A DNA stretch of 64,000 nucleotides from Aquirufa lenticrescens (GTDB lineage Bacteria > Bacteroidota > Bacteroidia > Cytophagales > Spirosomataceae). The stretch is taken from the NCBI RefSeq assembly GCF_019916085.1, contig NZ_CP049834.1, positions 1,812,501 through 1,876,500 on the forward strand, in the 5' to 3' direction. Shown here piece by piece: positions 18,854 through 41,903 of this stretch. Positions within the stretch are counted from its first letter, which is position 1; every line of letters starts with the position of its first letter. The position numbers and the translations under genes are program-made. The notes below the pieces were generated by a model. That model searched no databases and was not told the origin of the DNA. It saw only the letters and a list, made by a program, of their open reading frames with translations.

Positions 18854-18892
18854 AAAAAGAGAGGCGGCCCGCAGGGCCGCCTCTCTTTTTTT
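18854..18892. terminator. Second strong hairpin terminator between convergent genes
   Basis: A perfect 17-bp stem (AAAAAGAGAGGCGGCCC with its complement) on a GCA loop, with flanking A and T runs. It probably serves the minus-strand M13 gene as well as backing up the terminator at 18785. Confidence 0.88.
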
Positions 18893-18917
18893 ATCTCTAC
18901 TCTATAATCTCTTATCT
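18890..18917. repeat. Period-7 (heptamer) array, 4 units
   Basis: Four heptamers in one register (TTTATCT, CTACTCT, ATAATCT, CTTATCT) run from the terminator. One more heptamer (AGAAAGA) then reaches the stop codon of the M13 gene exactly. The units are the same family as in the array at 41813-41903. Confidence 0.75.
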
Positions 18918-18924
18918 AGAAAGA

Positions 18925-20955
18925 TTACCAAATCTTAATCCGATCTTCTGGCTTCTTATACAGCTTATCGCCTGGTTTCACATCAAATGCTTTGTACCAA
19001 GCATCCATATTCACTGGAGCACCGATTGTACGGTATTGACCAGGTGAGTGTGGATCTGTTAATACTTGTTGCGCCTCTGTCTCAGGAAGAGAGGAACCTC
19101 TCCAAACTTGTGCCCAAGCTAAGAAGAAACGTTGGTCTGGTGAGAATCCATCAATTTTCTTCGTTGACTTACCTTGCTTCGTCATTTTGAAAGCTTCGTA
19201 AGCCATATTCAAACCACCTAAGTCACCGATGTTTTCGCCCATTGTTAATTTACCATTGACGTGGATCGTGTCTTGAACCGTGTAAGCATCAAATTGCTTG
19301 CCTAAAAGTTCTGTTCTCGCTTTGAACTTCGCTAAGTCGTCTTTCGTCCACCAGTTACGTAAAGTACCGTCTTTATCGTATTGGCTACCAGAATCATCGA
19401 ATCCGTGTGACATTTCGTGTCCGATTACGGCACCAATTCCACCATAGTTGATCGCGTCATCTGCGTCAGCTGCGAAGAATGGGAATTGTAAGATACCTGC
19501 TGGGAATACGATTTCGTTCATCACTGGGCTATAGTAGGCGTTTACTGTTGGTGGCGTCATGCCCCATTTGCTTCTGTCTACTGGTTTGCCTAATTGCGCT
19601 AAGTTCTCTTGGAAGCCCCAAGCACCTGCACGACGGATGTTACCGTAGTATTCGTTAGCAGAAATCTCTAAACCATCATAGTTTTTCCATTTGTCAGGAT
19701 ATCCGATTTTAGGAGTAAATGCGTTTAATTTTGCCAAAGCCTTTTCTTTCGTCTCTGCGCTCATCCAATCTAATCTGTTGATGCGTACAGCGAAAGCTTT
19801 ACGTAGGTTAGCCACTAATTCAACCATTCTGGATTTCGCTTCTGGCTTGAAGTATTTAGCTACATACAATTGACCTAATAATTCACCTAACGTTCCGTCC
19901 GTCATCGCTGACATGCGTTGCCATCTTGGGGCTTGTACTTTTTGGCCAGATAATACTTGAGAGTAAGCAAAGCTCGCTTTCACAAATGGAGAGCTTAAAT
20001 AGCCTGCGCTATTACGCAATACATTCCACGCTAAATAGGTCTTCCACGTGTCTACTGGCGTTTCGATCAATAATTTGTTCGCTGCCTCGAAGAATTTAGG
20101 GGCACCTACTAGAATAGAATCTGGAGCAGATGTGCCAAAGTCTTGGAAAGTTAATGCCCAGTTAAAGGCAGGTGTCTTTTGATTGAAATCAGCAAAGGCA
20201 AATTTATTGTAAGTCTTGTACGGATCACGCATTTCGACACGAGCCATTTGCGCTTCCGCTAATTTCTTCTCTAATTGGAAAACCGTTTCAGCATTCGCTT
20301 TCGCTTGAGCCTCAGGAGTTCCAGTCAAAGTGAATAGCGTCGCTACATATTTTTTGAATGCCTCTTGAATCTTTAGGCTACGCGCATCATTCTTTAAGTA
20401 GTAATCGCGATCAGGAAGTGATGTTCCTCCTTGGCCTAATTGCGGTACCATTTTCTCTACATTCTTGCGGTCTTGACCGATGTAGAAACCAAATAAAGGA
20501 GAAGCAATACCTGAAGAGCGTAAACGCGCGATTTCAGTCACTACTTGTGACTTGAATTGCAAACCTGCGATGTGTTGTAAATCCGCTTGAATAGGGGTGA
20601 AGCCTAATTTTTCAATAGCTATACTGTCCATAGCCGCCGCATAGAAATCAGCGACTCTTCTTTCGACTGAACCAGCAGGGGCTTTCGTGCCTTTGGTTTC
20701 ATCTAAAATGGTTTTAATCGCATTGATGTTGAAATCACGCAATTGATTGAAAGCGCCCCAACGTGTTTCTTTCGCTGGGATAGGGTTTTTTCTAACCCAA
20801 GGACCATTAGAATATTCTACGAAGTCATCACCCGCTTTTACGCTTAGGTTCATATTGTCGCGGTCAATAAATTTTCCCGGTTTTTCTTGGGCAAATAGGC
20901 TGCCGCTGACTAAAAGCGAACCAGCCATAAGTAATTGGTAGTATTTATTTTTCAT
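18925..20955 (-). CDS. Secreted M13 family zinc endopeptidase (neprilysin/PepO-like)
   Basis: 676 residues with a Sec signal ending SLFAQ. Both M13 domains are present. The zinc site is HEMSH (His513, His517) with the third ligand Glu574 in GENIGDLGG, where Asp578 matches the supporting Asp of neprilysin. NAYYSPVMNEIVFPAGIL is the family's substrate-strand motif. The length is normal for bacterial PepO. It cleaves peptides of up to about 40 residues in the periplasm or outside the cell. It converges with the S9 peptidase upstream and diverges from the DPP5-like S9 gene, forming a peptidase cluster beside three SusCD pairs. Confidence 0.95.
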   Translation of the reverse strand: MKNKYYQLLMAGSLLVSGSLFAQEKPGKFIDRDNMNLSVKAGDDFVEYSNGPWVRKNPIPAKETRWGAFNQLRDFNINAIKTILDETKGTKAPAGSVERRVADFYAAAMDSIAIEKLGFTPIQADLQHIAGLQFKSQVVTEIARLRSSGIASPLFGFYIGQDRKNVEKMVPQLGQGGTSLPDRDYYLKNDARSLKIQEAFKKYVATLFTLTGTPEAQAKANAETVFQLEKKLAEAQMARVEMRDPYKTYNKFAFADFNQKTPAFNWALTFQDFGTSAPDSILVGAPKFFEAANKLLIETPVDTWKTYLAWNVLRNSAGYLSSPFVKASFAYSQVLSGQKVQAPRWQRMSAMTDGTLGELLGQLYVAKYFKPEAKSRMVELVANLRKAFAVRINRLDWMSAETKEKALAKLNAFTPKIGYPDKWKNYDGLEISANEYYGNIRRAGAWGFQENLAQLGKPVDRSKWGMTPPTVNAYYSPVMNEIVFPAGILQFPFFAADADDAINYGGIGAVIGHEMSHGFDDSGSQYDKDGTLRNWWTKDDLAKFKARTELLGKQFDAYTVQDTIHVNGKLTMGENIGDLGGLNMAYEAFKMTKQGKSTKKIDGFSPDQRFFLAWAQVWRGSSLPETEAQQVLTDPHSPGQYRTIGAPVNMDAWYKAFDVKPGDKLYKKPEDRIKIW

Positions 20956-20977
20956 TTGAAAAAGGTTGATGTGACAT

Positions 20978-20993
20978 TAAATTAATTAATTTA
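20978..20993. promoter_or_regulatory. AT-only 16-bp palindrome in a divergent promoter region
   Basis: TAAATTAATTAATTTA is a perfect palindrome in the 57-bp gap between the divergent M13 and DPP5-like genes. It may bind a regulator of both peptidases or may simply be low-complexity AT sequence. No TAnnTTTG box is seen on either strand here. Confidence 0.25.
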
Positions 20994-21012
20994 CTGTATC
21001 TAAACTACCGAT

Positions 21013-23046
21013 ATGAAAAAATTGTTACTAATCCTGTCCTGCTTTTTAGCATTTAGCCTCTCTATCCACGCTCAAAAGTCCATGTCACATGAGATCATGA
21101 TCAAGCTGAAGAAAGTAGGTGCCCCTAAAATTTCCCCAGATGGCCGCCATGTCATCTATTCCCGCATCGAAACATCTTATAATCTAGATGAGCAAACTGC
21201 TGATCTTTGGATAGCTTCTACGGATGGATCTTCAGAGCCTAGAAAATTAACTAATTCAAAGGGAGGCGAGGACAATTACCAATGGTCCGCTGCTTCAGAT
21301 AAGATTTATTTCATTGCTAAACGAGACGGCGACGAAGCCCCTCAACTTTACGTTTTACCGCTTTCGGGGGGAGAGGCCCAACGTTTAACCACACTTTCTA
21401 CCGGGGTAAGTGACGTTAAATTCTCATCAGACGGCTCACGCATTATTTTCTCCAGCCGCGTTTTCCCTACCGCTTTCACGGACTCTGCTAGTAAGAAATT
21501 AGCGGAGGAAAAGAAGAAAATTAAAACCAAAGCACGTGTCTATCAATCTTTCCCGGTTCGGTTTTGGGACTCTTGGTTAGATGAGAAACAAGGGCACATC
21601 TTCACGATGGACCTAAAGTCAGGTTCAAAGCCTCTGAATTTAATGGCGAACATATCACTTGTAAATTCTCCAGGTTTCCGTTTAGGTTCTTATAACTTCA
21701 GTGCTGATGGTAAATCAGTGGTGTTTACAGCGACTACGGAATACAACACAACTGCGTATCAATCAGCAAAATCAAATATCTATTCGGTGAGTTTATCTGG
21801 CGGCAAAGAAGTCGTACTCGTGAACGATGAGACGGATTACTCCACCGCTGAATTTACGGAGGATGGGAAATACCTGATTGCATCGGGTTCTGCCATCGGA
21901 AATAAATTGTATTACCTGAATCGAATTTACCGCTTTGATGCGTCTTCTTTGTCAGCCAAAAAAGAGCTAGCCGCCACTCTCGATCGTCCCATCAATGATA
22001 TGGAAATAGCTGGTTCCTCCATCTTCGCTAGTATCGAAGACCAAGGGGTGGATCGAATCGTTGAGATTTCAGTGACCGATGGTTCAGTTAAACCTGTTTT
22101 AGGAGCAGAAACGGGTTCTTATGCAGGTCTAAGTTTGTCTACTAATACGCGTGTTTTTGCGTATCAATACCAAAACGTGGCGACTCCGCCAGAGGTTTGG
22201 GTCTCGGCAAATGGTTCATTGAAAGCCATTTCAAAAGCAAATGAGGCTGTTTTAGCAGGATTGGATTTGCATAAACCGGAGGTGATTTGGACTAAATCGT
22301 CCAGAGGTAAAATGATTCGTTCGGTGGTGTTAAAGCCGACTGGTTTCGATGCTTCAAAGAAATATCCACTCTTTGTTTTAATGCACGGTGGTCCAGCTAG
22401 TTCGTTCAAAGATGTGTTTGGATACCGTTGGAATCCCTATATTTTAGGATCAGCGGGCTATGTAATCGTGATGACAGATTATACAGGATCGGTAGGGTAT
22501 GGCGAGAAATTCGCGCAAGATATTCAGTTTGACCCATTCAAAGGTCCAGGACAAGAAATCCAAGAAGCAGCGGCCGATGCCATTAAACGCTTCTCATATA
22601 TCGATGGCACTAAACAAGCCGCTGGCGGAGCATCCTATGGAGGTCACTTGGCCAATTGGATGCAAGCGACTACTTCACATTACAAATGTTTGATCTCACA
22701 CGCTGGTTTAGTGAACTCGGAGGCGCAATGGGGAACTTCGGATGTGATTTGGGGTAGAGAATTGATGAATGGAGGAGCACCTTGGGTACCTACTAAAACC
22801 TGGAAGGAACAAAATCCGATGCGCTTCGCAGCGAACTTCAAAACTCCGATGTTACTAACGGTAGGCGAAAACGATTACCGTGTCCCTATTAATAATACGT
22901 TGGAAAACTGGAGCATTCATCAACGTCTTCAAATTCCAAGCAAGTTAATTGTCTTCCCTGGCGAAAACCACTGGATCCTAAATCCAGATAACTCGAAGTT
23001 CCACTATTCGGAAATTCAAGGTTGGTTAGCGAAGTATTTAAAGTAG
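21013..23046 (+). CDS. Secreted S9 family peptidase, dipeptidyl-peptidase 5-like
   Basis: 677 residues with a Sec signal ending SIHAQ. An N-terminal beta-propeller (about 30-400) carries WD40-like pieces such as PKISPDGRHVIYSR, then an alpha/beta-hydrolase domain (about 420-677). The catalytic triad is visible: Ser541 in GGASYGGH, Asp621 in GENDYR and His653 in ENHWIL. The motifs, order and length match the DPP5/S9C group of Bacteroidota periplasmic dipeptidyl peptidases, which release dipeptides from oligopeptides. It is divergent from the M13 gene. Its stop codon lies inside the first unit of a heptamer array. Confidence 0.9.
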   Translation: MKKLLLILSCFLAFSLSIHAQKSMSHEIMIKLKKVGAPKISPDGRHVIYSRIETSYNLDEQTADLWIASTDGSSEPRKLTNSKGGEDNYQWSAASDKIYFIAKRDGDEAPQLYVLPLSGGEAQRLTTLSTGVSDVKFSSDGSRIIFSSRVFPTAFTDSASKKLAEEKKKIKTKARVYQSFPVRFWDSWLDEKQGHIFTMDLKSGSKPLNLMANISLVNSPGFRLGSYNFSADGKSVVFTATTEYNTTAYQSAKSNIYSVSLSGGKEVVLVNDETDYSTAEFTEDGKYLIASGSAIGNKLYYLNRIYRFDASSLSAKKELAATLDRPINDMEIAGSSIFASIEDQGVDRIVEISVTDGSVKPVLGAETGSYAGLSLSTNTRVFAYQYQNVATPPEVWVSANGSLKAISKANEAVLAGLDLHKPEVIWTKSSRGKMIRSVVLKPTGFDASKKYPLFVLMHGGPASSFKDVFGYRWNPYILGSAGYVIVMTDYTGSVGYGEKFAQDIQFDPFKGPGQEIQEAAADAIKRFSYIDGTKQAAGGASYGGHLANWMQATTSHYKCLISHAGLVNSEAQWGTSDVIWGRELMNGGAPWVPTKTWKEQNPMRFAANFKTPMLLTVGENDYRVPINNTLENWSIHQRLQIPSKLIVFPGENHWILNPDNSKFHYSEIQGWLAKYLK

Positions 23047-23140
23047 CCAGTATGCGGAAATAAGTATCCAGTATCCAGTATACAGTAATCAGTATCCAGT
23101 AAATTATCCACTGATTACTGACTACTGTCTACTGATTACA
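23043..23140. repeat. Period-7 array, 14 heptamers, folding back on itself
   Basis: From 23043 every seventh base starts a related heptamer: GTAGCCA, GTATGCG, then GTATCCA-type units to about 23105, then the inverted type (GATTACT, GACTACT, GTCTACT, GATTACA) to 23140. The register never shifts. The first unit contains the TAG stop of the DPP5-like gene and the last contains the stop of the convergent oxidoreductase. The halves can pair into a long imperfect hairpin. No T run is present, so it is not a classical terminator. Confidence 0.85.
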
Positions 23141-24206
23141 GCCTCATCATCTCCCCAGTCCTCACCGACTCATCACAAGCAAAAGCGATGCGTAAGCTGT
23201 TTACGGCATCCTCCACGTGATCCGTCAGGTCGATGTTTTCGTTGATAGCCTGCAGGAAATAGGCTTGCTCGCGATCGCAAAGACCTTGGTGGTCTGGTTC
23301 ATCTGTTAGGTTAACCCATTCGTCTTCCTTTGTAAATTCGTTTTTTGAATCAATTTCTGCATGGTGTACACGAAGGGATTCTGTTTTCGTGTGTGATTCT
23401 ACATCATCGGATTTGCCCTCACCGCCTGCATTTTTTGCGACGATGGAAACGGAACCTTTGGGCCCAAACACATCTTTCACAAAATACGCATTCTGAGAGA
23501 TCATCGGACCCCAGCCTGCCTCGTACCAACCCACGGATCCATCTTCAAAGTGAATTTGTAATTGACCGTAGTTATAATTGCCTGCCGGAATATCTTCTGT
23601 CATTCGCGCGCCTATGGCCGAAACACGCATAGGTTTCGATCGCGTCATTTGGCACATCACATCTATATAGTGCACCCCACAATCAACGATAGGGCTTAGC
23701 GATTTCATCAAATTACGGTGCACATCCCACATGTAGCCGTGGGATTGTTGATTTAAGTTCATGCGCATGACCAACGGTTTTCCCATTGTCTTCGCAATCT
23801 CGATAAACTTAATCCAAGACGGATGATGGCGTAAAATATAGCCCACTACGAGTTTTTTGCCACTTTTCTTTACAGCTTCCGCTACCCGAATAGCACCCGC
23901 TAACGAATCCGCTATCGGTTTCTCTAAGAAAACGTGGCAACCTGCTTCTAATGCGGCGATGGCATAGGCTTCGTGGGTATCTGGGTAAGTGGAGATGCAA
24001 ACTGCATCTGGCTTAGAGTCCGCAAGGGCGGTGTAATAGTCGCTGTAAAGCTTTTGGCCCCCACCTAATGCTTTATTTAATGCTTCTTTGCTATTTCCCG
24101 GGGAAACAAGTCCACAGATTTCGAATCCGGCTACATTCTGGTAGGCTTTCGCATGAGAGGCTCCCATGTTTCCGCAACCCACCACGAGCACGCGTATATT
24201 TTTCAT
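23136..24206 (-). CDS. Gfo/Idh/MocA family NAD(P)-dependent oxidoreductase
   Basis: 356 residues, no signal peptide. The Rossmann domain (about 1-125) has the dinucleotide motif VVGCGNMGASHA near the N-terminus and the family EKP motif (FLEKPIA) near residue 95. The C-terminal part (about 130-330) is the usual alpha/beta substrate domain. Members oxidise or reduce sugars, inositols and sugar acids. Substrate is not predictable. It is divergent from the pectinesterase fusion gene, sharing a short intergenic region, so a role in plant-polysaccharide sugar use is a reasonable inference. Its last codons lie within a heptamer array. Confidence 0.9.
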   Translation of the reverse strand: MKNIRVLVVGCGNMGASHAKAYQNVAGFEICGLVSPGNSKEALNKALGGGQKLYSDYYTALADSKPDAVCISTYPDTHEAYAIAALEAGCHVFLEKPIADSLAGAIRVAEAVKKSGKKLVVGYILRHHPSWIKFIEIAKTMGKPLVMRMNLNQQSHGYMWDVHRNLMKSLSPIVDCGVHYIDVMCQMTRSKPMRVSAIGARMTEDIPAGNYNYGQLQIHFEDGSVGWYEAGWGPMISQNAYFVKDVFGPKGSVSIVAKNAGGEGKSDDVESHTKTESLRVHHAEIDSKNEFTKEDEWVNLTDEPDHQGLCDREQAYFLQAINENIDLTDHVEDAVNSLRIAFACDESVRTGEMMRL

Positions 24207-24274
24207 GTTAATCGATTTAGACTCGTAAATTAGGAAGAATGATTAGAATAATCGAATCTTCGCCTTTACAAATT

Positions 24275-26152
24275 ATGCGCTACATCCTTATTTTCTTGCT
24301 ATTAGGTTCCTTGAGACTTTCTGCTCAAAACAAATCAGGTATCACAGGTAAACCTGATACGTCCTTTACGAATTATTCAGCTTTGAGGATGGTTTCCAAA
24401 CAGGATCCTTCCATTCGCCTAGCGGATTATCAAAGTGCAAAGGTCAAAGTGCAAAGTTCAGTGTACAAAGTGATAGGATCAAGGAAACTAGTGGTGGATG
24501 AATATGCGGTCTCTTCCACTCGCAAGCTGCCTAGTCTCGTATTTTTCCATGGTGGAGGCTGGAGAACGGGTCATCGTTCTCAGCATATTCCTTTAGCAAA
24601 AGCCTTAGCAGATTGTGGATACCGGGTCTTTTTAGTAGAATACCGTTTATCCACGGAGGCTTTATATCCTGCGGCGATGCTAGACGCACAAACAGCCTTG
24701 CAATGGGTTTCGAAACGTAAAAATGTAGGCGAAATCTATGTGGGTGGTTATTCAGCTGGGGGCCAAATGGCTGCGCTCCTTGGTTCCGTTCAAGATGAAA
24801 ATACCTATGGAAAAGGAGTCAAATTAGCCGGGGCCATTGATATCGATGGGATATTGGCCTTTATTCACCCGGAGTCAGGAGAGGGAGATGATAGCAAACG
24901 TATCTCAGCGGCGACTCATTATTTTGGGTATAATAAGGTAGAGGGCGAGGCAATCTGGAAGGGGGCTTCCGCTTTGAGTCATGTGACGAAAGGCGATCCG
25001 CCGGTATTATTCTTAAATTCTAGTGATGAGCGGATGCACGCAGGGCGTGACGATTTTAGGCAGAAAATGGCCGGTTTGGGAATACATACGGAGTTTCACA
25101 CATTTGAAAATTCTCATCATACGTTCGTATTAATGAATCACTGGTTCAATCAGGTGGTGGACCGAATGGATCGTTTTATGCGCAAACGTTTAGTGGTGGG
25201 AACTGATTTCAAGACGATACAATCCGCAGTAGATGTGGCTCGTCCTGGTCAGGAGATTTTTATTAAAAATGGCAATTACCAAGAAAAGGTATTCATCGAT
25301 TCATTGAAACACAATTTGTCTTTTGTAGGTGAAAGCAGGGATGGCGTCGTATTGCGGGAGACGATTGCGCGGGATATTTGGCGTTGTTCAAATCCTGATG
25401 ATTATGGTGCGGGGGTTTTAAATATCAAAGGGCACGATTTGTCATTCCGGAATATGACCATTGTGAATGAATATGGATTCACGGCGACGAAGGATGTGAC
25501 GATTCCCTGTTTGAACGAGGCGGGAAAGGAGACGACCACGACAGTTCAAAAATATGCTTTGCCAAGAGAAAAGGGAGAGAAAGAGGGAGAGAAGATTGTC
25601 CGTGTGGATGGACATCAATTTGCGGTTCGTACGATGCCTGGTGCCACCCGTTTGTCTTTCGAACAATGTACCATCCGATCAGGTGGCGGTGATACGGTAA
25701 GTCCTTGGGACGTGAATGCGGGAATGTATTATTTGAATGACTGTTTGATTGAAGGGGGAGTAGATTTGTATTGTCCGCGCGGCTATGCCTTGGCTGAGAA
25801 TTGCACCTTTGTGTGCCATAATACGAGTGCGGCGATTTGGCACGATGGTTCAGGAGAAGTAGGGGCGAAGACCGTTTTGAAAAATTGTCGTTTTATTGGG
25901 GATCCGGGGTATAAATTAGGCCGATACCACCGCGAAGCACAATTTTATCTTTTGAACTGTTCTTTTGATAGAAATATAGCGGATGCACCTATCTACCAGT
26001 CAGGTGACCGAGTGCTCAACTGGGGCCATCGCGTGTATTATATGGATTGCCATAAGGATGGAGGCGACTTTGCTTGGCATAAAAATAATAGTCCAGTAAA
26101 GGCCAGCGAATTGACATTCAAGACGATTTTTGGAGAAAAATGGAAAAAATAA
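24275..26152 (+). CDS. Secreted fusion: alpha/beta-hydrolase esterase plus pectinesterase (CE8-like)
   Basis: 625 residues from ATG 24275 (MRYILIFLLLGSLRLSAQ), chosen for its signal peptide; an in-frame ATG at 24239 adds 12 residues. The N-terminal half (to about 310) is an alpha/beta-hydrolase with HGGGW oxyanion motif, GGYSAGGQ nucleophile motif, SSDERMHAG and ENSHHTF. The C-terminal half (from about 320) is a right-handed beta-helix like pectin methylesterase: DFKTIQSAVD, GNYQEKV, GGDT and GVDLYCPRG at the places of the two catalytic Asp motifs, and LGR in place of LGRPW. The likely role is to remove acetyl and methyl groups from pectin. A heptamer tract at 24430-24471 encodes part of the linker after the signal. 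Confidence 0.87.
   Translation: MRYILIFLLLGSLRLSAQNKSGITGKPDTSFTNYSALRMVSKQDPSIRLADYQSAKVKVQSSVYKVIGSRKLVVDEYAVSSTRKLPSLVFFHGGGWRTGHRSQHIPLAKALADCGYRVFLVEYRLSTEALYPAAMLDAQTALQWVSKRKNVGEIYVGGYSAGGQMAALLGSVQDENTYGKGVKLAGAIDIDGILAFIHPESGEGDDSKRISAATHYFGYNKVEGEAIWKGASALSHVTKGDPPVLFLNSSDERMHAGRDDFRQKMAGLGIHTEFHTFENSHHTFVLMNHWFNQVVDRMDRFMRKRLVVGTDFKTIQSAVDVARPGQEIFIKNGNYQEKVFIDSLKHNLSFVGESRDGVVLRETIARDIWRCSNPDDYGAGVLNIKGHDLSFRNMTIVNEYGFTATKDVTIPCLNEAGKETTTTVQKYALPREKGEKEGEKIVRVDGHQFAVRTMPGATRLSFEQCTIRSGGGDTVSPWDVNAGMYYLNDCLIEGGVDLYCPRGYALAENCTFVCHNTSAAIWHDGSGEVGAKTVLKNCRFIGDPGYKLGRYHREAQFYLLNCSFDRNIADAPIYQSGDRVLNWGHRVYYMDCHKDGGDFAWHKNNSPVKASELTFKTIFGEKWKK
24430..24471 (+). repeat. In-frame heptamer tract inside a coding sequence
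   Basis: Six heptamers (TCAAAGT, GCAAAGG, TCAAAGT, GCAAAGT, TCAGTGT, ACAAAGT) make 42 bp, a multiple of three, so the frame is kept. It encodes about 14 residues (roughly QSAKVKVQSSVYKV) between the signal peptide and the esterase core. Confidence 0.7.
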
Positions 26153-26156
26153 TTTA

Positions 26157-26183: not shown

Positions 26184-26209
26184 TTCTGTTACCTCTAAAC
26201 TTATCAACT

Positions 26210-34503: not shown

Positions 34504-34839
34504 ATGGGAATTACCAAAACAGACCTCTTTACAGAAGAACAAAATGCGATTGCGCAGATGGCCAAAGTACTCGGACATCCTGCACGCGTCGCCATTTTGC
34601 AGTATTTGGTGAAATCCAATACCTGCATCAACGGAGATTTAGTCCAAGAACTAGGTCTAGCCCAAGCCACCGTTTCTCAACATTTGAGAGAATTGAAAGA
34701 GGTGGGCTTTATTCAAGGAACGATTGAAGGAGTCTCCGTTTGTTATTGCATTAACCCAGAAAAGTGGGCAGAATTTAGCCAGCTTTTTGGGGAGTTTTTC
34801 GAACATTATTTTGTCGCACAAAAATCTAACTGTTGTTAA
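34504..34839 (+). CDS. arsR: ArsR family metalloregulator
   Basis: 111 residues. A winged-helix repressor: KVLGHPARVAILQYL and LGLAQATVSQHLRELKEVGFIQGTIEG are the ArsR DNA-binding and wing sequences. Cysteines occur in the NTCIN segment, in SVCYC after the wing and in the C-terminal KSNCC, and could bind As(III). It heads a three-gene operon with the next gene one base after its stop. The upstream region contains ATTGCAAT (34481-34488) inside an imperfect dyad near the start, a possible autoregulatory operator. As(III) binding by these cysteines is inference. Confidence 0.9.
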   Translation: MGITKTDLFTEEQNAIAQMAKVLGHPARVAILQYLVKSNTCINGDLVQELGLAQATVSQHLRELKEVGFIQGTIEGVSVCYCINPEKWAEFSQLFGEFFEHYFVAQKSNCC

Positions 34840-34840
34840 T

Positions 34841-35359
34841 ATGTCAACTTTTCCAAGAATGCACGTCTCCCTGTATGTCAGCAATTTAGCGGCATCGGTG
34901 AATTTTTACTCAACTTTTTTCGGTCAGCCAGCTACGAAAGTGAAACCAGGCTATGCGAAATATGTGTTAGATAGTCCCTCCTTGATTATCTCGTTTATCG
35001 AAAATCCAGAACGCGTTCAGGCAAACTTTGGCCACCTAGGTTTCCAAGTAGAAACTTCGGAAGAGATGAATGCCCGTTTAGAAGTGGCAAGAAAACAAGG
35101 GATTGTTTCCAAAGAGGAAATAGGGACATCCTGCTGCTTCGCCGTTCAAGACAAATTCTGGGCAACGGATCCCGACGGTGTTCAATGGGAAGTGTATTAT
35201 TTCCACGAAGATGCAGAATTCAATGACCCGCACTACGCTGCGCAGGATGCATCTGCTTGTTGCATGCCGCCGTTAGCAGTGGCTGAAGAAAAACCAAAAT
35301 TAAAAATCGCCGAAGTGCAAGCCGCAAACGCTTGTGCCCCAGGCTCAGGATGTTGCTAA
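34841..35359 (+). CDS. ArsI/CadI family glyoxalase-fold metalloenzyme
   Basis: 172 residues from ATG 34841; the frame is open further upstream within arsR but MSTFPRMHVSLYVSNL is the family's standard N-terminus. A VOC-fold domain (1-130) carries the vicinal cysteines in TSCCFAVQDKFWATDPDGVQWEVYY, which match ArsI C-As lyases and the CadI group. His8 and the Glu in WEVY are the usual metal ligands. The C-terminal tail is rich in cysteine pairs (SACCM, SGCC). ArsI-type enzymes split the carbon-arsenic bond of trivalent methylarsenicals or aromatic arsenicals. It lies between arsR and arsC. Confidence 0.88.
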   Translation: MSTFPRMHVSLYVSNLAASVNFYSTFFGQPATKVKPGYAKYVLDSPSLIISFIENPERVQANFGHLGFQVETSEEMNARLEVARKQGIVSKEEIGTSCCFAVQDKFWATDPDGVQWEVYYFHEDAEFNDPHYAAQDASACCMPPLAVAEEKPKLKIAEVQAANACAPGSGCC

Positions 35360-35360
35360 G

Positions 35361-35966
35361 ATGAAGGATACGTTAAACCAAAATTTGGACCAAATTCTCT
35401 CCCTCGACATCCCAGCCGAGCGCCGAGAAATTCTACAAGTCTTAATCGATTACATCAAAGACAAACGCAAAAAAGAGCAGCCGATTCGCCTGAATTTCAT
35501 CTGTACGCACAATTCGCGCCGCTCTCAATTCTCACAAGTATGGGCCCAAACCGCCGCTGACTTTTTCCAAATCCCTGCCCAATGTTATTCCGGTGGGGTA
35601 GAGGTAACGGCTTGTAATGAACGCACCGTGGCTTCGCTAGAGCGAATGGGTTTCATTGTCTCTAAACACGGGCATTCTAATCCCATCTATTTCGCCTTGC
35701 ACACGCAGGATTCGCGTCCCATCATTCTTTTTTCGAAACTGTATGATGACGTCATTAATCCGCACGGCAATTTTGCGACGGTCATGACCTGTTCACACGC
35801 AGACGAAAATTGCCCTTTCATTCCTGGCGCTGAAGCACGCATTCCGGTCCGTTATGAGGATCCCAAAACCTTTGATGACACCGCTGAGGAGGCTGCGCAA
35901 TACGATGCAAGATCGAGGCAGATAGCGGGAGAGATGTTTTATGTGTTTTCGAGAGTATCAATCTAG
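35361..35966 (+). CDS. arsC: Thioredoxin-coupled arsenate reductase (LMW-phosphatase fold)
   Basis: 201 residues from ATG 35361, one base after the preceding stop. The phosphatase-like loop is Cys48-THNSR-Arg54 (CX5R). The redox relay cysteines Cys144 and Cys151 in CSHADENCP keep the spacing of S. aureus ArsC Cys82 and Cys89, which supports arsenate reductase over a plain tyrosine phosphatase. It is longer than the 130-residue S. aureus protein, having an N-terminal helix of about 40 residues and an insertion. The reaction is arsenate to arsenite using thioredoxin. No arsenite efflux gene (arsB or acr3) follows; the next feature is a long hairpin. Confidence 0.88.
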   Translation: MKDTLNQNLDQILSLDIPAERREILQVLIDYIKDKRKKEQPIRLNFICTHNSRRSQFSQVWAQTAADFFQIPAQCYSGGVEVTACNERTVASLERMGFIVSKHGHSNPIYFALHTQDSRPIILFSKLYDDVINPHGNFATVMTCSHADENCPFIPGAEARIPVRYEDPKTFDDTAEEAAQYDARSRQIAGEMFYVFSRVSI

Positions 35967-35980
35967 ATTTCTTTTGCAGT

Positions 35981-36041
35981 TAATTTACAGGTATTTCTGA
36001 AAATGTCCTTCGAAATATTTTCGCGAAATACCTGTAAATTA
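35981..36041. repeat. Perfect 17-bp inverted repeat (long hairpin) after the ars operon
   Basis: TAATTTACAGGTATTTC at 35981-35997 is exactly complementary to 36025-36041. The 27-base loop contains GAAAAT and ATTTTC, which lengthen the hairpin. No T run follows, so it is not a standard terminator. The spacer from 36042 to 36091 shows nothing recognisable. Confidence 0.8.
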
Positions 36042-36091
36042 GCTCGCAAACAGTAAATCTTTCTTCATCTCTCTTAAGCTGAAGTACGTGG

Positions 36092-36196
36092 AGGCGGACA
36101 TCGGAAGTCGCTAGTCAATAGTCCGGAGGAAACATTAATCATTCACCATTTACCATTCACCATTTACCATTCTCTTTACTCTCTTCTCCATAATCT
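36092..36196. repeat. Period-7 array, 15 heptamers, left of the NTF2-like gene
   Basis: Fifteen heptamers keep one register: AGGCGGA and CATCGGA types, AGTCGCT/AGTCAAT types, then ATTCACC and ATTTACC alternating twice, then ATTCTCT, TTACTCT, CTTCTCC, ATAATCT. The last base is the first base of the minus-strand stop codon. The array is an imperfect inverted copy of the one at 36623-36755. Confidence 0.85.
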
Positions 36197-36621
36197 TACG
36201 AAGTGTGATCCCTCACCACCAGCCACTTCCCGTTTATTTTTTTCATCAACAACGTAAAATAGCCACCCACATCACCCACGGTCGGTCTTGTCAAATGCCA
36301 GCGGCCTAATACCCAGGCAGTCTTTCCTTCTGTCACATCTACTTCTTGAATGTCAAAATCCAAAGTTCCCATTGTCTCGCGATTAGGATACGATTTTAAA
36401 TAGCGTTGAAGAGTCGCATCCCAACCTGAAACCACGCCAGCCTTTCCAACGAATTTTAGATTAGGGGATTTCTCGTAGTATTCCATAAAACCCTCAATAT
36501 CGCCCTTGTTCCACAGTTTAATCTGAGTTTGCAGGACAGACTTGATATCGTTTTCGTCTTTATTTGTTTGAGCGAAAAGGAGGGAGGGGAAGAATAGGAG
36601 TAGGTAGAGGAGTGTTTTCAT
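36196..36621 (-). CDS. Secreted NTF2-like (DUF4440/SnoaL-type) protein
   Basis: 141 residues with a Sec signal ending LLFAQ. The mature part is a small cone-shaped NTF2-like domain: DIKSVLQTQIKLWNKGDIEGFM and KINGKWLVVRDHTS are typical of the DUF4440 group, whose members are found as ligand-binding or orphan enzymes. No function can be given. The gene fills the whole space between two inverted heptamer arrays (36092-36196 and 36623-36755). Its signal peptide uses CTA and CTC leucine codons, unlike most genes here, which prefer TTA, suggesting array-like sequence has entered the coding region. Confidence 0.82.
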   Translation of the reverse strand: MKTLLYLLLFFPSLLFAQTNKDENDIKSVLQTQIKLWNKGDIEGFMEYYEKSPNLKFVGKAGVVSGWDATLQRYLKSYPNRETMGTLDFDIQEVDVTEGKTAWVLGRWHLTRPTVGDVGGYFTLLMKKINGKWLVVRDHTS

Positions 36622-36622
36622 A

Positions 36623-36755
36623 TTAGAGTAGAGATTATAGAGTAAAGATAATAGAGAATGGTAAATGGTGAATGGTAAATGCTTCCTCCGGACTCATTCC
36701 CTCCGGACTTTCGACTAGCGACTGTCTACTGGCCACTGTCCACTGACTACTGATT
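36623..36755. repeat. Period-7 array, 19 heptamers, right of the NTF2-like gene
   Basis: Nineteen heptamers hold one register while the unit changes: TTAGAGT and AGAGATT types, ATGGTAA/ATGGTGA types, CTCCGGA types, then ACTTTCG, ACTAGCG, ACTGTCT, ACTGGCC, ACTGTCC, ACTGACT, ACTGATT. It begins one base upstream of the start codon of the minus-strand NTF2-like gene. The remaining 82 bp to the next gene contain TATTGTATCA at 36802-36811 and no clear promoter box. Confidence 0.87.
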
Positions 36756-36837
36756 TTGGCATTTCGTCTCATTTTCCACTCAACAATTTTAAAAATCCAA
36801 TTATTGTATCATTTTTGTAGAATACTAATTTAAACCT

Positions 36838-39684
36838 ATGATTAAGAAAATTACGCTAGCCATTTTACTGGCTTTTCCTGTGCTTTCTTCGCTTGCACAG
36901 GCCCCCGATGAAAATCGTTTTGTGAAGTCTGTTTTGGTGGACAAATTGGATGAACCTATGGAGTTTACCTTTTTGCCAGATGGACGAATCCTATTTGTAG
37001 AACGTAAAGGGGATGTGAAGTCTTATGATACGAAGACTAAAGAGACGAAGACGATCGCTCACTTAAATGTCAACACGAAATACAAAAACCGTTTGGGTCA
37101 AGAGCGTGTGGCAGAAGAGGGATTAATGGGTATTGTTTTGGACCCTAACTTCAGTAAAAATCACTGGTTATACCTTTATTATGCGCATCCAACGGAGACG
37201 AAGCACATTCTAGCTCGTATGGAATTGCGTGGCGATGAGTTATTGGTAGAGCAACAAAAAGTGCTTTTGGAGGTTCCTACACAGCGGGAGGAATGCTGCC
37301 ATACGGGTGGTGGAATGGTTTTTGACAAATCAGGAAACTTATTCTTAACCGTGGGAAACAATACAAGTAACAGTAATTCAGATGGTTATGCGCCTATCGA
37401 TGAGCGTCCGGGTCAAGCGTATTGGGATGATCAACGTGGTGCGTCTAATACGAATGATTTACGCGGAAAGATTTTACGCATTCACCCAGAGGCGAATGGC
37501 ACGTATACGATTCCAAAAGGCAATTTATTTGCACCAGGTACGCCTAAGACGAAGCCAGAAATTTATACGATGGGTCACCGCAATCCTTGGAGACCTAGTA
37601 TTGACTCAAAAACGGGTTTCTTATATTGGGGTGAAGTAGGTCCGGATGCGTCAGTAGATTCAGAAAAAGGTCCACGCGGTTATGATGAATTTAATCAGGC
37701 CAAAGGTCCAGGCTATTATGGCTGGCCTTATTTCATCGGAAACAACCAAGCTTATGCGGATGTGAACTTTGAGACGATGGCGATTGGACCTAAATTCAAT
37801 CCAGCTGCTCCAGTGAACGAATCTCCCAATAACACCGGTTTACGTGAATTGCCACCAGCAACGAAAGCGATGATTTGGTATCCATACGGTACTTCAGATG
37901 AGTTCCCATTAGTGGGTTCATCAGGTCGTTCAGCGACGGGTGGTCCGGTCTTTAGAAAGGCGAATTTTGCAGGTGCAAAGCGTGCTTTCCCATCGTATTA
38001 TGAAGGAAAATGGTTGATCGTGGAGTTTATGCGTGGTTGGATTATGGCTGTTACCATGGATGAAAATGGGAATTATAAATCTATGGAGCGCTTTATGCCT
38101 TCTACGACTTTTGGTTCGGCGATTGATATGGACTTCAGCCCTGAGGGAGATTTATATGTATTAGAATATGGTTCGGCTTGGTTCCGCGGAAATGAAAACG
38201 CACGCTTAGTGAAGATTGAATACCAAGGTGGTAACCGCAAACCATATGTGGAAGCCTCTTCAGCTAAAAAAGCGGGAGCAGCACCATTCACAACGACTTT
38301 ATCTGCAGAAGGAACGAAAGATTTCGACGGAGATAAGTTGACCTATACATGGACAGTGAAAAAGGCAGGCAAATTTGTGAAGAATTTAGCTGGCGCTAAT
38401 CCAACCTTGCAACTGAGAGACGCAGGTAAATACGAGGTGATCCTAAAGGCATCCGATCCGAAAGGATTGTCGAATACGGCTTCTTTGGAAATCTTAGTAG
38501 GTAACGAAGCGCCAGTAGTGGACATCGCGGTGGAAGGAAATAAATCGTTCTATTTCGAAGGTCAACCTGTGAAATACGAAGTAAAAGTAGAAGATAAAGA
38601 AGACGGAACGCTCGGTAAAGGTATCGCCAAAGAGGCAGTTGCTACAACTGTTGATTACGTAGCATCAGGTTACGACCCGATCGAGATGGCCCAGTCACAC
38701 CGCAAGGCAGATAGCGATTTATTCGCTTCGGCAGGTCTTCGTTTGATCAATGCGAGTGATTGTAAATCTTGTCACCAAATGTCTGTACGCTCTGTAGGGC
38801 CATCTTACAAAGAAGTGGCTGAGAAGTACAAAGGTCAAGATATGGTGGAGAAACTTTCTGACAAGGTAATTGCTGGTGGAATGGGCGTTTGGGGAGAACA
38901 CGCGATGTCTGCTCATCCGAATATCTCGAAAGCAGATGCGAAAGCGATGGTGAACTATATCTTGAGTTTAGGAGATTCCAAAGCAAGTAATGCTATTGCT
39001 ACTTCAGGAACCTTAGGTTTGAAAAAGCCAGCGGATCAATCGTCTTCGAAAGGGGTGTTCGTGGTTCGTGCGACATATTTAGATAAAGGAAACAAGAAAA
39101 TGGCTCCAGTTCAATCGGAGAAATGGTTGTTCTTGCGTCACCCAGCCTTGAACGTGGAGAAAGCAGATATGACGAAAGGCATTTTGCAGTTAATCACGCC
39201 AGGTCGTTCGACGAACATGGTGGGTCAAAATCCTCACTTAGGCTACAAAGATTTAGATTTAACTGGAATCTCAACAATTGAAATTTCGGCTTCAGCACAA
39301 GCGCGTTCTAACGCAGCGGGTGGTGTGATTGAAATTCGTTTGGATTCACCTACCGGAACGGTCATTGGTCAAACAGCGCCGATCGAAGTGTCACAAGGTG
39401 GATTTGGTGGACCTCCTCCAGCAGCGGCAACGCCAGGAAAGGGTGCTCCACTAGGAACGGGAGTTGCGGCTCCAGCTTCAGCGCCTGCAGCTACAACAGC
39501 CCCTGCACCGTCAGCAGCTCCAGCGGCACCTGCGGGTCAAAGAAGAATGTCTGGTCCAACTGCTCAAAAAGTAGCCATCCAAGCCACTTCAGGTTCTCAT
39601 GATCTGTATTTTGTGGCGGTAAACCCGAAAGCAACCGAGCAACAAATCGTCGTGCAGATCTCGGGTATTGAAATGAAAAAATAG
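36838..39684 (+). CDS. Secreted sugar dehydrogenase (GSDH beta-propeller)/PKD/cytochrome c/CBM6-like protein
   Basis: 948 residues, Sec signal ending SSLAQ. Order: glucose/sorbosone-dehydrogenase-type beta-propeller (about 25-465; EPMEFTFLPDGRILFVERKG, EEGLMGIVLDPNF, MGHRNPWRPSID), PKD-like domain (about 470-560), linker, class I cytochrome c (about 620-700) with heme motif Cys642-K-S-Cys645-His646, then a C-terminal CBM6-like beta domain (about 730-948). This last domain is interrupted by a Pro/Ala-rich segment at about 854-905 before HDLYFVAV. It probably oxidises a sugar in the periplasm or at the surface and passes electrons to its heme. It is usually PQQ-linked; no PQQ genes are in the window. 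Confidence 0.88.
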   Translation: MIKKITLAILLAFPVLSSLAQAPDENRFVKSVLVDKLDEPMEFTFLPDGRILFVERKGDVKSYDTKTKETKTIAHLNVNTKYKNRLGQERVAEEGLMGIVLDPNFSKNHWLYLYYAHPTETKHILARMELRGDELLVEQQKVLLEVPTQREECCHTGGGMVFDKSGNLFLTVGNNTSNSNSDGYAPIDERPGQAYWDDQRGASNTNDLRGKILRIHPEANGTYTIPKGNLFAPGTPKTKPEIYTMGHRNPWRPSIDSKTGFLYWGEVGPDASVDSEKGPRGYDEFNQAKGPGYYGWPYFIGNNQAYADVNFETMAIGPKFNPAAPVNESPNNTGLRELPPATKAMIWYPYGTSDEFPLVGSSGRSATGGPVFRKANFAGAKRAFPSYYEGKWLIVEFMRGWIMAVTMDENGNYKSMERFMPSTTFGSAIDMDFSPEGDLYVLEYGSAWFRGNENARLVKIEYQGGNRKPYVEASSAKKAGAAPFTTTLSAEGTKDFDGDKLTYTWTVKKAGKFVKNLAGANPTLQLRDAGKYEVILKASDPKGLSNTASLEILVGNEAPVVDIAVEGNKSFYFEGQPVKYEVKVEDKEDGTLGKGIAKEAVATTVDYVASGYDPIEMAQSHRKADSDLFASAGLRLINASDCKSCHQMSVRSVGPSYKEVAEKYKGQDMVEKLSDKVIAGGMGVWGEHAMSAHPNISKADAKAMVNYILSLGDSKASNAIATSGTLGLKKPADQSSSKGVFVVRATYLDKGNKKMAPVQSEKWLFLRHPALNVEKADMTKGILQLITPGRSTNMVGQNPHLGYKDLDLTGISTIEISASAQARSNAAGGVIEIRLDSPTGTVIGQTAPIEVSQGGFGGPPPAAATPGKGAPLGTGVAAPASAPAATTAPAPSAAPAAPAGQRRMSGPTAQKVAIQATSGSHDLYFVAVNPKATEQQIVVQISGIEMKK

Positions 39685-39705
39685 TCTTTTGATTATAGTA
39701 ATTCT

Positions 39706-39743
39706 GGGGTCCTCTCTGCTTTAATAGAGAGGACCCCTTTTTT
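39706..39743 (+). terminator. Terminator whose T run abuts the next start codon
   Basis: Arms GGGGTCCTCTCT and AGAGAGGACCCC form a perfect 12-bp stem on an 8-base loop, followed by six T (39738-39743). The ATG of the GH105 gene begins at 39744. Confidence 0.9.
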
Positions 39744-41039
39744 ATGCGCTATACCTTAATTTTGTTGTTAATTTCTGGCTCCTTATTTGGCCAAAAAAAT
39801 ATCACCACCGCTTCGGACGCTACGGCGCCTCTGCATGCATTACAACCAGATTATCCTACACCTTACGGTGCGCCTACAGTTGAAAATATCCAAAAAACCA
39901 TCGACCGTGTCTTCGCTTATTTAGAAACGGCGACGCCTGATCGTTTTGTGGATAAGACGAGCGGCGCAGAAGTGAAAACCTATAACGCAAATACCCTATT
40001 TAGCAAGGGGGATTTTCGTCCGATTTCCTACGAATGGGGCGTGACTTATTCCGGAATGCTCGCTTTAACAGAAGTCACCGGGGATGTGAAATACAAGAAC
40101 TATGTGTTTATTCGCCTCAATCTGATAAATTCGGCTGTTCCAGAGGCCATAAAGATTCCCGCAGATCAATCTCATGTGTTGAAAGGCTTAGTGCATCCTC
40201 GCGCATTAGACGACATCGGAGCGATGGGAATGGCCGTGGTCAAGGCGAAGAAAGCAGGCTTCACGACCGATATGTCTTACATTACGAAACGTGCCTCTGA
40301 CTTTATTTTAAAGGAAGAGCATCGCTTACCGGATCGCACTTTGGTGCGGATTCGACCATTACACCACACGATGTGGCTGGACGATGTCTATATGGCTATT
40401 CCGGCTTTATTGCAGTTAGGGGAATATGAGGAGGCGGTTTTTCAGTTCAATGCCTACCGCAAACGGATGTTCAATCCGAACCAAAATATTTATATGCACG
40501 GTTATTTAGTGGACGCCACGGAGCACCCGGAATTTCATTGGGGGCGTGCGAATGGCTGGGCCTTGTTGACCAACTGCGAATTATTGGAGTATTTGCCGGC
40601 GAATCACCCGGCGCGTCCGGAGATTTTGGCCCAATTGAATAATCACTTGAAAGGGCTGATGGCTTTGCAGGATGGGACGGGATTTTGGCATCAATTACTG
40701 GATAAAAATGATTCCTATTTAGAGACATCTTGCACGGCGATTTATACCTATGTTCTTGCCAAAGGCATAAACAAAGGCTGGCTCGACCCTAAAACCTATG
40801 GTCCTGCAGCGATATTAGGCTGGAATGCAGTGAATACGAAAGTGAATGAAAAAGGCCAGGTGGAAGGGACATGCGTAGGAACAGGTTTAGCCTGGGATCC
40901 TGCTTTCTACTATCACCGCCCAATTTCACCATTTGCGGCACACGGCTATGGTCCCGTTTTATTAGCTGGAGCAGCCATGATGGATTTAGTGAAACATCAC
41001 ACTTACCAAATCAATGATTCTGCCGTACATTTGAAATAA
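39744..41039 (+). CDS. Secreted GH105 unsaturated rhamnogalacturonyl hydrolase
   Basis: 431 residues with a Sec signal (MRYTLILLLISGSLFGQ) that fixes the start at 39744, directly after a terminator. An (alpha/alpha)6 barrel of the GH105/GH88 clan: WLDDVYM with Asp213 and Asp214 in the active site, and HWGRANGWALL (His265), the clan signature. It removes the unsaturated uronic acid that pectate or rhamnogalacturonan lyases leave at the non-reducing end. It sits two bases before kduD, which handles the product of that pathway, and close to GH88. The exact linkage preference is not evident. Confidence 0.92.
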   Translation: MRYTLILLLISGSLFGQKNITTASDATAPLHALQPDYPTPYGAPTVENIQKTIDRVFAYLETATPDRFVDKTSGAEVKTYNANTLFSKGDFRPISYEWGVTYSGMLALTEVTGDVKYKNYVFIRLNLINSAVPEAIKIPADQSHVLKGLVHPRALDDIGAMGMAVVKAKKAGFTTDMSYITKRASDFILKEEHRLPDRTLVRIRPLHHTMWLDDVYMAIPALLQLGEYEEAVFQFNAYRKRMFNPNQNIYMHGYLVDATEHPEFHWGRANGWALLTNCELLEYLPANHPARPEILAQLNNHLKGLMALQDGTGFWHQLLDKNDSYLETSCTAIYTYVLAKGINKGWLDPKTYGPAAILGWNAVNTKVNEKGQVEGTCVGTGLAWDPAFYYHRPISPFAAHGYGPVLLAGAAMMDLVKHHTYQINDSAVHLK

Positions 41040-41041
41040 TT

Positions 41042-41806
41042 ATGAAAAACACGTTTGATTTAACAGGAAAAATAGCGCTAGTCACGGGTTGTAAGCGTGG
41101 AATCGGAATGGCGATGGCGCTCGGTTTAGCGGAGGCAGGTGCGGATATCATTGGAGTTTCGGCTAATTTAGAATTGGCCGGTTCTCAGGTTTCTGCCACT
41201 GTGGAGGCTTTAGGTCGCAAATTCAAAGCTTACCAAGCTGACTTCTCAAATCGAGATTCGCTCTATGCGTTCATCAAACAGTTGAAAGCTGACTATCCCC
41301 GCATCGATATATTAGTAAACAACGCAGGAACGATTTTGCGTAATCCGGCAGCGGAACATTCAGATGAGTTTTGGGACGAAGTATTGGAAGTCAATCTGTC
41401 ATCTCAGTTTATTTTGAGCCGCGAAATCGGTTCTCGGATGATTACTGAAGGTAGTGGAAAAATTATTTTTACTGCTTCTCTATTAAGCTTTCAAGGTGGC
41501 ATTAATGTGCCGGGTTATGCTGCCAGTAAAGGCGGTATCGCCCGTTTAACAATGGCTTTAGCGAACGAGTGGGCTGGGAAAGGAGTAAATGTGAACGCGA
41601 TTGCTCCGGGTTATATTTCCACTGATAATACGACGGCATTGCGCGAAGATAAAGAGCGCAGCGCTTCTATTTTAGGTCGAATTCCGGCGGGAAGATGGGG
41701 GGAACCAGAAGACTTTAAGGGTCCGGTGGTATTCTTAGCTTCTGAAGCCTCTAATTATGTACACGGAACCATTTTGACCGTTGATGGCGGCTGGATGGGA
41801 AGGTAA
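41042..41806 (+). CDS. kduD: 2-dehydro-3-deoxy-D-gluconate 5-dehydrogenase (KduD)
   Basis: 254 residues. SDR fold with VTGCKRGIG cofactor motif, NNAG, and catalytic Tyr159-x3-Lys163 (GYAASKGG). The C-terminal RIPAGRWGEPEDFKGPVVFL and VDGGWMGR are close to E. coli KduD, which has 253 residues. It interconverts 2,5-diketo-3-deoxygluconate and 2-keto-3-deoxygluconate with NAD in uronate breakdown. It starts two bases after the GH105 stop, so the two are co-transcribed, and GH88 follows after a heptamer array. KduI, KDG kinase and aldolase are not in the window. Confidence 0.92.
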   Translation: MKNTFDLTGKIALVTGCKRGIGMAMALGLAEAGADIIGVSANLELAGSQVSATVEALGRKFKAYQADFSNRDSLYAFIKQLKADYPRIDILVNNAGTILRNPAAEHSDEFWDEVLEVNLSSQFILSREIGSRMITEGSGKIIFTASLLSFQGGINVPGYAASKGGIARLTMALANEWAGKGVNVNAIAPGYISTDNTTALREDKERSASILGRIPAGRWGEPEDFKGPVVFLASEASNYVHGTILTVDGGWMGR

Positions 41807-41812
41807 AAGTGT

Positions 41813-41903
41813 AGAGATAATAGAGTAGAGATAAGAGATATGAATCTCGACTCTATTATCACTTATCTCTACTCTATACTCTATTATCTCTTATCTAATA
41901 ATT
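41813..41903. repeat. Period-7 array, 13 heptamers, ending at a start codon
   Basis: Units in one register: AGAGATA (three), ATAGAGT, TGAATCT, CGACTCT, ATTATCA, CTTATCT, CTACTCT, ATACTCT, ATTATCT, CTTATCT, AATAATT, after which ATG of the GH88 gene begins. The left part is the inverted complement of the right part, so a long hairpin of over 20 bp can form just before the start codon. Confidence 0.87.

Follow-up and report, generated by a model that had tools for sequence, protein, structure and literature searches.

We describe a family of intergenic arrays of seven-base units in Aquirufa lenticrescens (Bacteroidota; Cytophagales; Spirosomataceae), starting from 64,000 nucleotides of its 2.5-Mb genome, referred to below as G000 (contig NZ_CP049834.1; G000:C1:1812501-1876500, hereafter the window). 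The strongest feature of the family, invisible from the window alone, is that the position of an array is kept between species and the type of its unit is often replaced. In the window the arrays occupy five gaps between genes, at 18890-18917 (gap 1), 23043-23140 (gap 2), 36092-36196 (gap 3), 36623-36755 (gap 4) and 41813-41903 (gap 5). Our preferred interpretation, which we hold with about even confidence, is that they are intergenic heptanucleotide repeats of the sort found in cyanobacteria, Xanthomonas and some Bacteroidota, unusual in being of multiple types and often inverted, that they are driven by slippage, and that they perhaps act as hairpins at 3' ends. The sequences compared show that close orthologues differ mainly by whole units, that arms, where there are two, oppose each other with a fixed polarity, and that the arrays are placed at gene ends, mostly convergent ones; at a kept position the unit type is often replaced, and many such replacements leave the register to the adjoining gene unaltered.

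Array positions are kept between species while unit types are often replaced

Units were sorted by eye and are written here on the pyrimidine-type strand, with labels fitted to these data. At least six types were distinguished, namely t1 (TCTACTC/TATAATC), t2 (TACCATT/CACCATT), t3 (TACTGNN), t4 (CTTTATG/CTTTGTG), t5 (GACTANY) and t6 (CTTTGNN), beside which a CGGACT core was recognized. The main comparison was with the sister species A. antheringensis 30S-ANTBAC (G019), which is collinear with G000 and about 87% identical to it in aligned DNA (measured on 204 kb); 604 kb of G000 were set against 600 kb of G019, and a slightly looser threshold was used for arrays in orthologous gaps. Two of the 22 blocks found in G000 could not be placed, and all of the remaining 20 (20/20) have an array in the orthologous gap of G019. 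The make-up of the units, compared by 5-mers, differs at 13/20 of these shared positions, and the main type differs at 13/18 loci, with 2 untyped; one locus that differs by 5-mers is t6 in both genomes. In the other direction, the 30 blocks of G019 consist of the 20 shared ones, 7 that the scan recovers only in G019 and 3 unplaced ones, and three of the 7 show short heptamer runs in G000 when inspected by eye. A third species, G012, has an array at 16/18 of the G000 array positions that could be placed in it.

The same substitutions recur at separate loci. Type t3 in G000 corresponds to t5 in G019 at four loci, and t1 (TCTACTC) in G000 to t6 in G019 at four others, the reverse being seen at none in either case; t1 in G000 corresponds to t4 in G019 twice and t4 to t1 once, such pairs carrying no time direction. 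A wider sample was read by eye at gap 5, between an SDR gene and a GH88-like gene, where arrays or single arms are present at 19 of 30 Aquirufa loci and absent from 11, all of the latter grouped within a single clade of a tree built from one gene. Types t1, t6, t4, t5, CCGG, ACGT and t2-like all occur at this one position among the 19 loci, with t1 and t6 alternating between sister species on the same gap-5 tree. At gap 4 no array is apparent by eye in more distant Aquirufa (21/30 loci), and in relatives parts of it are replaced by core-bearing [t4-core-t4] and [t6-core-t6] blocks. The sister species of Aquirufa, one of them cultured, thus form a natural experiment in which place, period and polarity are conserved and the sequence is free. 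That positions are kept and units swapped favours either a function of structure or periodicity or a slippage process blind to sequence.

The whole-genome counts of the type patterns also differ. For t3/t5/t6/t1 they are 114/13/24/107 in G000 and 20/243/240/65 in G019, and such counts are only rough because matches within one array are not independent. Over ten array-rich genomes the count of t1 falls as that of t6 rises (rho -0.75, p=0.013), and the counts of t3 and t5 show no relation. The t1/t6 relation falls to rho -0.64 (p=0.086) for the eight genomes on the gap-5 tree, that is without G023 and G007, and to rho -0.44 (p=0.18) when G003 is added to the ten. For G012 a prediction had been made beforehand, with t5 expected at the t3/t5 loci and either t1 or t4 at loci of the t1/t6 kind. 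Of the placed t3/t5 loci 1/3 proved to carry t5, and 4/4 of the t1/t6 loci carried t1 or t4; counting only new cases gives 0/2 and 3/3, the state of gaps 2 and 5 having been known earlier.

Two interpretations that invoke a factor acting in trans bear on these counts. In one, which we regard as decidedly unlikely, a protein or nucleic-acid template would set the heptamer dialect of a genome (t1 or t6, t3 or t5), and a change in this determinant would rewrite many inverted arrays at unrelated gene ends in parallel, each in register and with its position fixed. In the other, which is highly improbable, the heptamer would be one footprint of a single-strand binder, for example a cold-shock protein of the OB-fold on the pyrimidine strand, and the arrays would follow its changing preference. 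Binding by such proteins would suit both the fact that G000 and G019 differ in type in the same way at several loci and the strong difference between species in whole-genome counts; moreover, cold-shock proteins are reported to bind heptamer repeats with weak specificity and one protein per unit (PMC4679880). Against a binding lattice stand the presence of several unit types within one genome, the fragility of the t1/t6 relation under the three samplings (rho -0.75, -0.64, -0.44), the lack of one between t3 and t5, and the G012 prediction, which came true only in part. Both interpretations involving such a factor become less likely because the inverse t1/t6 relation is fragile on recount.

A seven-base period that is specific and nearly confined to intergenic DNA

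Gaps 2-5 consist of head-to-tail 7-base units with a lag-7 identity of 0.62-0.64, which none of 1000 dinucleotide shuffles equalled (0/1000), even when the best of lags 2-21 was taken for each shuffle. A scan of the whole window in 56-base windows at lags 4-15 exceeded 0.6 only at lags 7 and 14 and only at these gaps; a 35-base scan added one more array, at 24430-24472. The autocorrelation check proposed with the initial annotation therefore came out in its favour, lag 7 being far above shuffled sequence. Its list of five period-7 gaps holds for gaps 2-5; the 28-base piece at 18890-18917 is too short to be significant by itself, as 16/1000 shuffles equal it at lag 7 and 582/1000 at any lag, and its units are of a type present elsewhere in the G000 genome. 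The annotation had further described the units as changing stepwise in a constant register. The former is borne out by unit reading and arm typing, the unit sequence shifting stepwise along many arrays, which are thus not made of one unit sequence each. The latter does not extend to the whole of gap 4, where two copies of CTCCGGACT begin 15 bases apart instead of 14.

Beyond the window, 724 kb of G000 contain 44 arrays at lag 7 and 34 at lag 14, the remaining lags between 4 and 13 giving 0-4 apiece. Of the lag-7 arrays, 41/44 are mostly intergenic, in a genome where intergenic DNA has a share of about 6%. At a looser threshold the 604 kb of G000, of which 204 kb had already been within the 724-kb scan, gave 25 arrays for lag 7, the highest number for any other lag being 8 (lag 9). 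Of two further genomes, G009, which lacks an array at gap 5, and G005, 80 kb each were scanned, with 1 lag-7 array in either, not above other lags. The t3 pattern, allowing up to 1 mismatch, occurs at 114 places in G000, and the same pattern read backwards at 0. No match at the arrays was obtained with Rfam at gathering score, the window yielding one tRNA only. Arrays of other units exist in Cytophagales beyond Aquirufa.

Several mixed blocks share the order t1/t4-t2-core-t5-t3 or its mirror image, with exceptions such as those at G000 133192, 162827, 172705 and 219208, and a core hairpin, GGAATCCCCTNNGGGGAT, is present in 10/38 genomes. The recurrence of this order at several loci, the distribution of the core hairpin and the [t4-core-t4] and [t6-core-t6] blocks substituting parts of gap 4 in relatives would be expected of a dispersed mobile repeat (REP-, MITE- or SDR-like), in which a composite of core and heptamer arms copied itself and inserted into older arrays. 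We consider this rather unlikely, given that Y1 transposases are absent from G000, G019, G012 and other array-rich genomes, that changes mostly affect gaps already bearing arrays (20/27 placed G019 blocks have a G000 array), and that register to the flank is often retained; constant ends or target duplications were not noticed by eye in the gaps read, no systematic search for them having been run. As an observation apart, a t6 arm with a GGAATCCCCTGCGGGGAT core hairpin stands in three near-identical tandem copies, 85 bp apart, at G019:C3:402057-402625, showing that expansion of a larger unit also occurs.

Gain and loss of whole units and retention of register

Close orthologues provide a view of how the arrays change. 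In six orthologue pairs at gaps 4 and 5, with some genomes shared between pairs, 10/14 indels (insertions or deletions) in the range of 5-40 nt have a length divisible by 7, compared with 7/49 among control indels outside arrays (p=9e-5), most of which are codon-sized. This is the stricter of two counts and the one used, as a broader one, over orthologue pairs of >=85% identity, was swamped by misaligned arrays of unlike type. Alignments of the more diverged G000 and G019 in and near arrays show no excess (5/31 sevens). The gain and loss of units that the initial annotation expected between orthologues is seen in the close pairs, and this check, like that on lag 7, did not refute it.

The register relative to the gene-proximal flank, a side picked after the table had been seen, is unchanged in 8/13 type-switched arms (chance 1/7, p=1.1e-4), and still in 5/9 when the loci used for unit mapping are left out (p=0.0045). 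Since register survives a change of type, a change in place, by slippage and homogenisation, fits better than a fresh insertion. A process that copies 7-base steps had been one of the candidates put forward for the arrays at the outset, and slippage is its best fit.

Orientation, gene context and folding

Two-armed blocks have, by unit type, a purine-type left arm and a pyrimidine-type right arm in 22/23 cases in G000 and 12/12 in G019, a test that is partly circular because the strand labels derive from these same data. Among single arms the pyrimidine-type lies closer to the right open reading frame (ORF) in 19/19 cases and the purine-type closer to the left ORF in 11/14. A plain purine count gives the same polarity in 30/40 blocks of G000 and, not significantly, in 16/27 of G019; simple purine and pyrimidine halves were dropped as a measure of polarity, as ordinary convergent gaps lean similarly (29/46 and 12/19). 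Outside the genus the polarity was found for 12/21 arms from four genomes, one of which (G007) is an Aquirufa, with overlapping loci counted twice. That the right arm might form a weaker RNA:DNA hybrid was also considered and set aside, the effect being too small (-1.13 against -1.28 kcal per step, background -1.20).

The contact with start and stop codons that had been described for the window extends to the family, 56/67 blocks of G000 and G019 having an edge within 15 bp of the end of a called ORF; ORFs were called mechanically, and 8 blocks lying inside them were excluded from this and the single-arm counts. Convergent gaps are enriched, making up 21/40 array gaps and 67/409 gaps of 40-700 bp in G000 (p=2e-8) and 14/26 and 34/220 respectively in G019 (p=9e-7). 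Divergent gaps are depleted in G000 (3/40 array gaps vs 142/409). Canonical terminators are rarer in convergent array gaps of G000 than in other convergent gaps (10/21 vs 37/46, p=0.0098).

Most of the arrays in the window had been thought to invert and fold. This was confirmed for gaps 2 and 5, where 23043-23145 (z -4.5) and 41811-41898 (z -3.9) are each made of arms of one type, and it failed for gaps 3 and 4. Four chosen orthologues of gap 5, quite unlike one another in sequence, fold with z of -4.9 to -8.4. By a crude 5-mer measure, 13/26 two-armed blocks have matching arms, six of these loci having been picked for t3 hits. The convergent bias, the folding of matched arms and the lower number of canonical terminators in convergent array gaps are together the reason for suggesting a role at 3' ends.

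Proposed mechanism and the evidence for and against it

Based on these observations we propose that replication slippage in 7-base steps would bring about the gain, loss and homogenisation of units, and that template switching, whether inside a hairpin or among arrays at other genomic sites, could spread variants through both arms. SbcCD is a nuclease that cuts hairpins. The SbcD model TIGR00619 matched none of the 38 Aquirufa genomes (0/38) and, as a control, 13/14 named genomes, and the absence of this hairpin nuclease may allow the genus to tolerate such palindromes. The arrays would then persist because, where transcription units have their 3' ends, an inverted array does no harm or is of slight use, as a hairpin or as a boundary resembling a terminator.

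Several results weigh against this proposal. When only control indels not divisible by three are considered, 7/19 are sevens, and the difference from the 10/14 in arrays is reduced to p=0.08. Counted over both flanks, register is kept in 9/26 cases (p=0.008). The same type change at several loci goes beyond slippage alone. Segments 36092-36196 (z +1.25) and 36622-36760 (z +2.45), with arms of differing types, do not fold, and the similarity of arms within blocks, equalled in 156/2000 permutations, is not clearly above chance; selection for hairpins is for these two reasons not general. The deficit of canonical terminators weakens once gaps are length-matched (9/19 vs 22/30), and in G019 it falls short of significance (8/14 vs 17/20, p=0.12); at some loci arrays adjoin canonical terminators. 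The absence of SbcD is not sufficient, because array-free Aquirufa lack it as well. As a switch between array-bearing and array-free members of the genus its loss was rejected on the same ground, being common to all 38 genomes and at most permissive.

A serious though less probable alternative is that the arrays are a neutral by-product without function, in which 7-base slippage in a hairpin-tolerant genus leaves repeats to accumulate at 3' ends, where extra DNA does least harm. The slippage data (44 lag-7 arrays; 10/14 whole-unit indels), the depletion of divergent gaps (3/40 vs 142/409), the missing SbcD and the unfolded state of mixed arrays are all consistent with it; the keeping of 20/20 positions with changes of make-up at 13/20 of them, together with the polarity of single arms, is more regular than plain slippage would lead one to expect.

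Enzymes that could move or template the repeats were also looked for. Mobility of the RAYT/REP kind was rejected, as PF01797 (Y1) is found in 12/38 Aquirufa genomes and in 0/10 of the array-rich ones; it is present in 4/5 genomes whose gap 5 holds no more than a t2-like arm (G017, G020, G024, G033) and in several array-free ones. Templating by a reverse transcriptase fared no better: RVT_1 is not common enough to account for the arrays, occurring in 5/38 genomes, namely G000 (one gene), G012, G021, G010 and G024, all with arrays or an arm at the gaps read, and it is absent from the array-rich G019 (99% complete) and from G030, G014 and others. This distribution makes scarcely credible a telomerase-like, templated addition of heptamers to DNA ends, in which arrays would be joined ends and the purine strand would lead 5'-3' from each of the two genes into the gap, even though two telomere-like ends in a head-to-head junction have this polarity and G000 itself carries an RVT_1 gene.

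Relationship to known repeats

Tandem heptanucleotide repeats of cyanobacteria are known as the STRR type, and the Aquirufa arrays are set beside them here by their descriptions. No counterpart in Bacteroidota with a changing unit and a constant register had been known to the initial annotation, a statement that is incorrect or at least incomplete, as heptamer arrays have been described from that phylum: TAACTGA repeats, differing mostly by 7-nt indels and including mixed heptamers, are reported from Beggiatoaceae, Cyanobacteria and five Bacteroidetes, of which some have the mixed kind (MacGregor 2015, PMC4679880). The STRR/TAACTGA repeats resemble the arrays in their 7-base unit, their intergenic location, often beside a start or stop codon, their mostly 7-nt indels between close strains and the occurrence of other heptamers at some loci, and the Beggiatoa genome has one dominant unit, with direct repeats of similar units rare. 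The Aquirufa arrays, on the other hand, have at least six types, are often inverted with a fixed polarity, and have their type replaced at conserved positions. Heptamers are also reported as the most abundant class of intergenic tandem repeats, of unclear function (PMC6344855). In Xanthomonas and Nostoc the unit of the GGGAATC and GGGGA(C/T)T repeats forms G-quadruplexes (Rehm 2015, PMC4692102), whereas the units described here are low in G, of several types and changing between species.

Two other systems offer partial likenesses. REP/BIME elements with RAYT are likewise dispersed, intergenic and often palindromic, but the Aquirufa arrays have no constant palindrome, and their array-rich genomes have no Y1 transposase. 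Bidirectional intrinsic terminators share the location at 3' ends and in convergent gaps and the inverted arms; the arrays differ in having no GC-rich stem with a U-tract, and some cannot fold. A literature search, outside which the original STRR papers and Mrazek 2007 fell, found no description of such Aquirufa arrays or of type switching at conserved positions, and it is because this replacement was not found described that we class the arrays as a variant of the known heptamer repeats.

Anatomy of the arrays in the window and neighbouring elements

All coordinates below refer to the + strand of the window. Gap 1, between convergent genes for S9 and M13 peptidases, holds a single pyrimidine-type arm of t1 (TATCTCT ACTCTAT AATCTCT) at 18892..18920, assigned from its sequence (alone 16/1000), immediately preceded by a GC-rich terminator-like hairpin (~18854-18892); its orthologue in G019 consists of t6 units. 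The array of gap 2 has a purine-type left arm of t3 (CAGTATC etc.) at 23042..23102, lying over the stop codon of an S9 peptidase gene (lag 7 = 0.63, 0/1000; arm orientation), and a pyrimidine-type right arm of t3 (ACTGATT ACTGACT ACTGTCT) at 23111..23141, which folds with the left arm (z -4.5) and reaches up to the stop of a convergent Gfo/Idh gene. At the position of this right arm both G019 and G012 have t5 units.

Gaps 3 and 4 carry the same composite in opposite orientations on either side of a DUF4440 gene. In gap 3 a purine-type left arm (AGTCGCT AGTCAAT AGTCCGG AGGAAAC) at 36106..36133, recognized by sequence and arm typing, is followed at 36134..36195 by a pyrimidine-type right arm of t2 and then t1 (ATTCACC ATTTACC ... 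CTCTTTA CTCTCTT; lag 7 = 0.62, 0/1000), which terminates at the DUF4440 stop and whose composite order is the mirror of 36622-36754. Gap 4 consists of a purine-type left arm of t1 and then t2 at 36622..36681, immediately upstream of the DUF4440 start (lag 7 = 0.62, 0/1000), the core TTCCTCCGGACTCATTCCCTCCGGACT at 36683..36709, which is wholly or partly common to other G000 arrays, and a pyrimidine-type right arm of t5 and then t3 (GACTAGC GACTGTC TACTGGC ...) at 36710..36754. The t3 part is the same in G019, where the centre is a different block, [t6-core-t6]. In gap 5 a purine-type left arm of t1 at 41811..41840, soon after the SDR stop codon (lag 7 = 0.64, 0/1000; fold z -3.9), faces a pyrimidine-type right arm of t1 at 41845..41896, which ends 7 bases ahead of the ATG of the GH88-like gene.

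The additional array at 24430-24472 lies within a called ORF (24239-26152), upstream of the first Pfam match of the latter (residue 93), and its main type is t6 in G000, G019 and G012; the start of this ORF may have been called too early, or the array may be translated. A palindromic element at ~35966-36054 (TTAATTTACAGGTATTTC ... GAAATACCTGTAAATTA), between the upstream gene and the array of gap 3, recurs in several relatives, in one of which its arms are altered and still match. Past gap 4, a stretch at ~36782-36837 (ATTATTGTATCATTTTTGTAGAATA...) ahead of a GSDH-like gene shows little change among the relatives read, where the adjoining array turns over; it is probably the promoter of that gene. 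Hairpins of a second family share a conserved core, ATTGCGCAGCAC with its variants, and their long arms vary between loci and are complementary within each. One motif, searched over about 1.1 Mb of G000 together with 0.6 Mb of G019, recovered 6 of them (G000:C1 near 121230, 1805438, 2011448 and 2022253; G019:C3 near 469573 and 482916), and a similar hairpin is found in gap 3 of locus L079.

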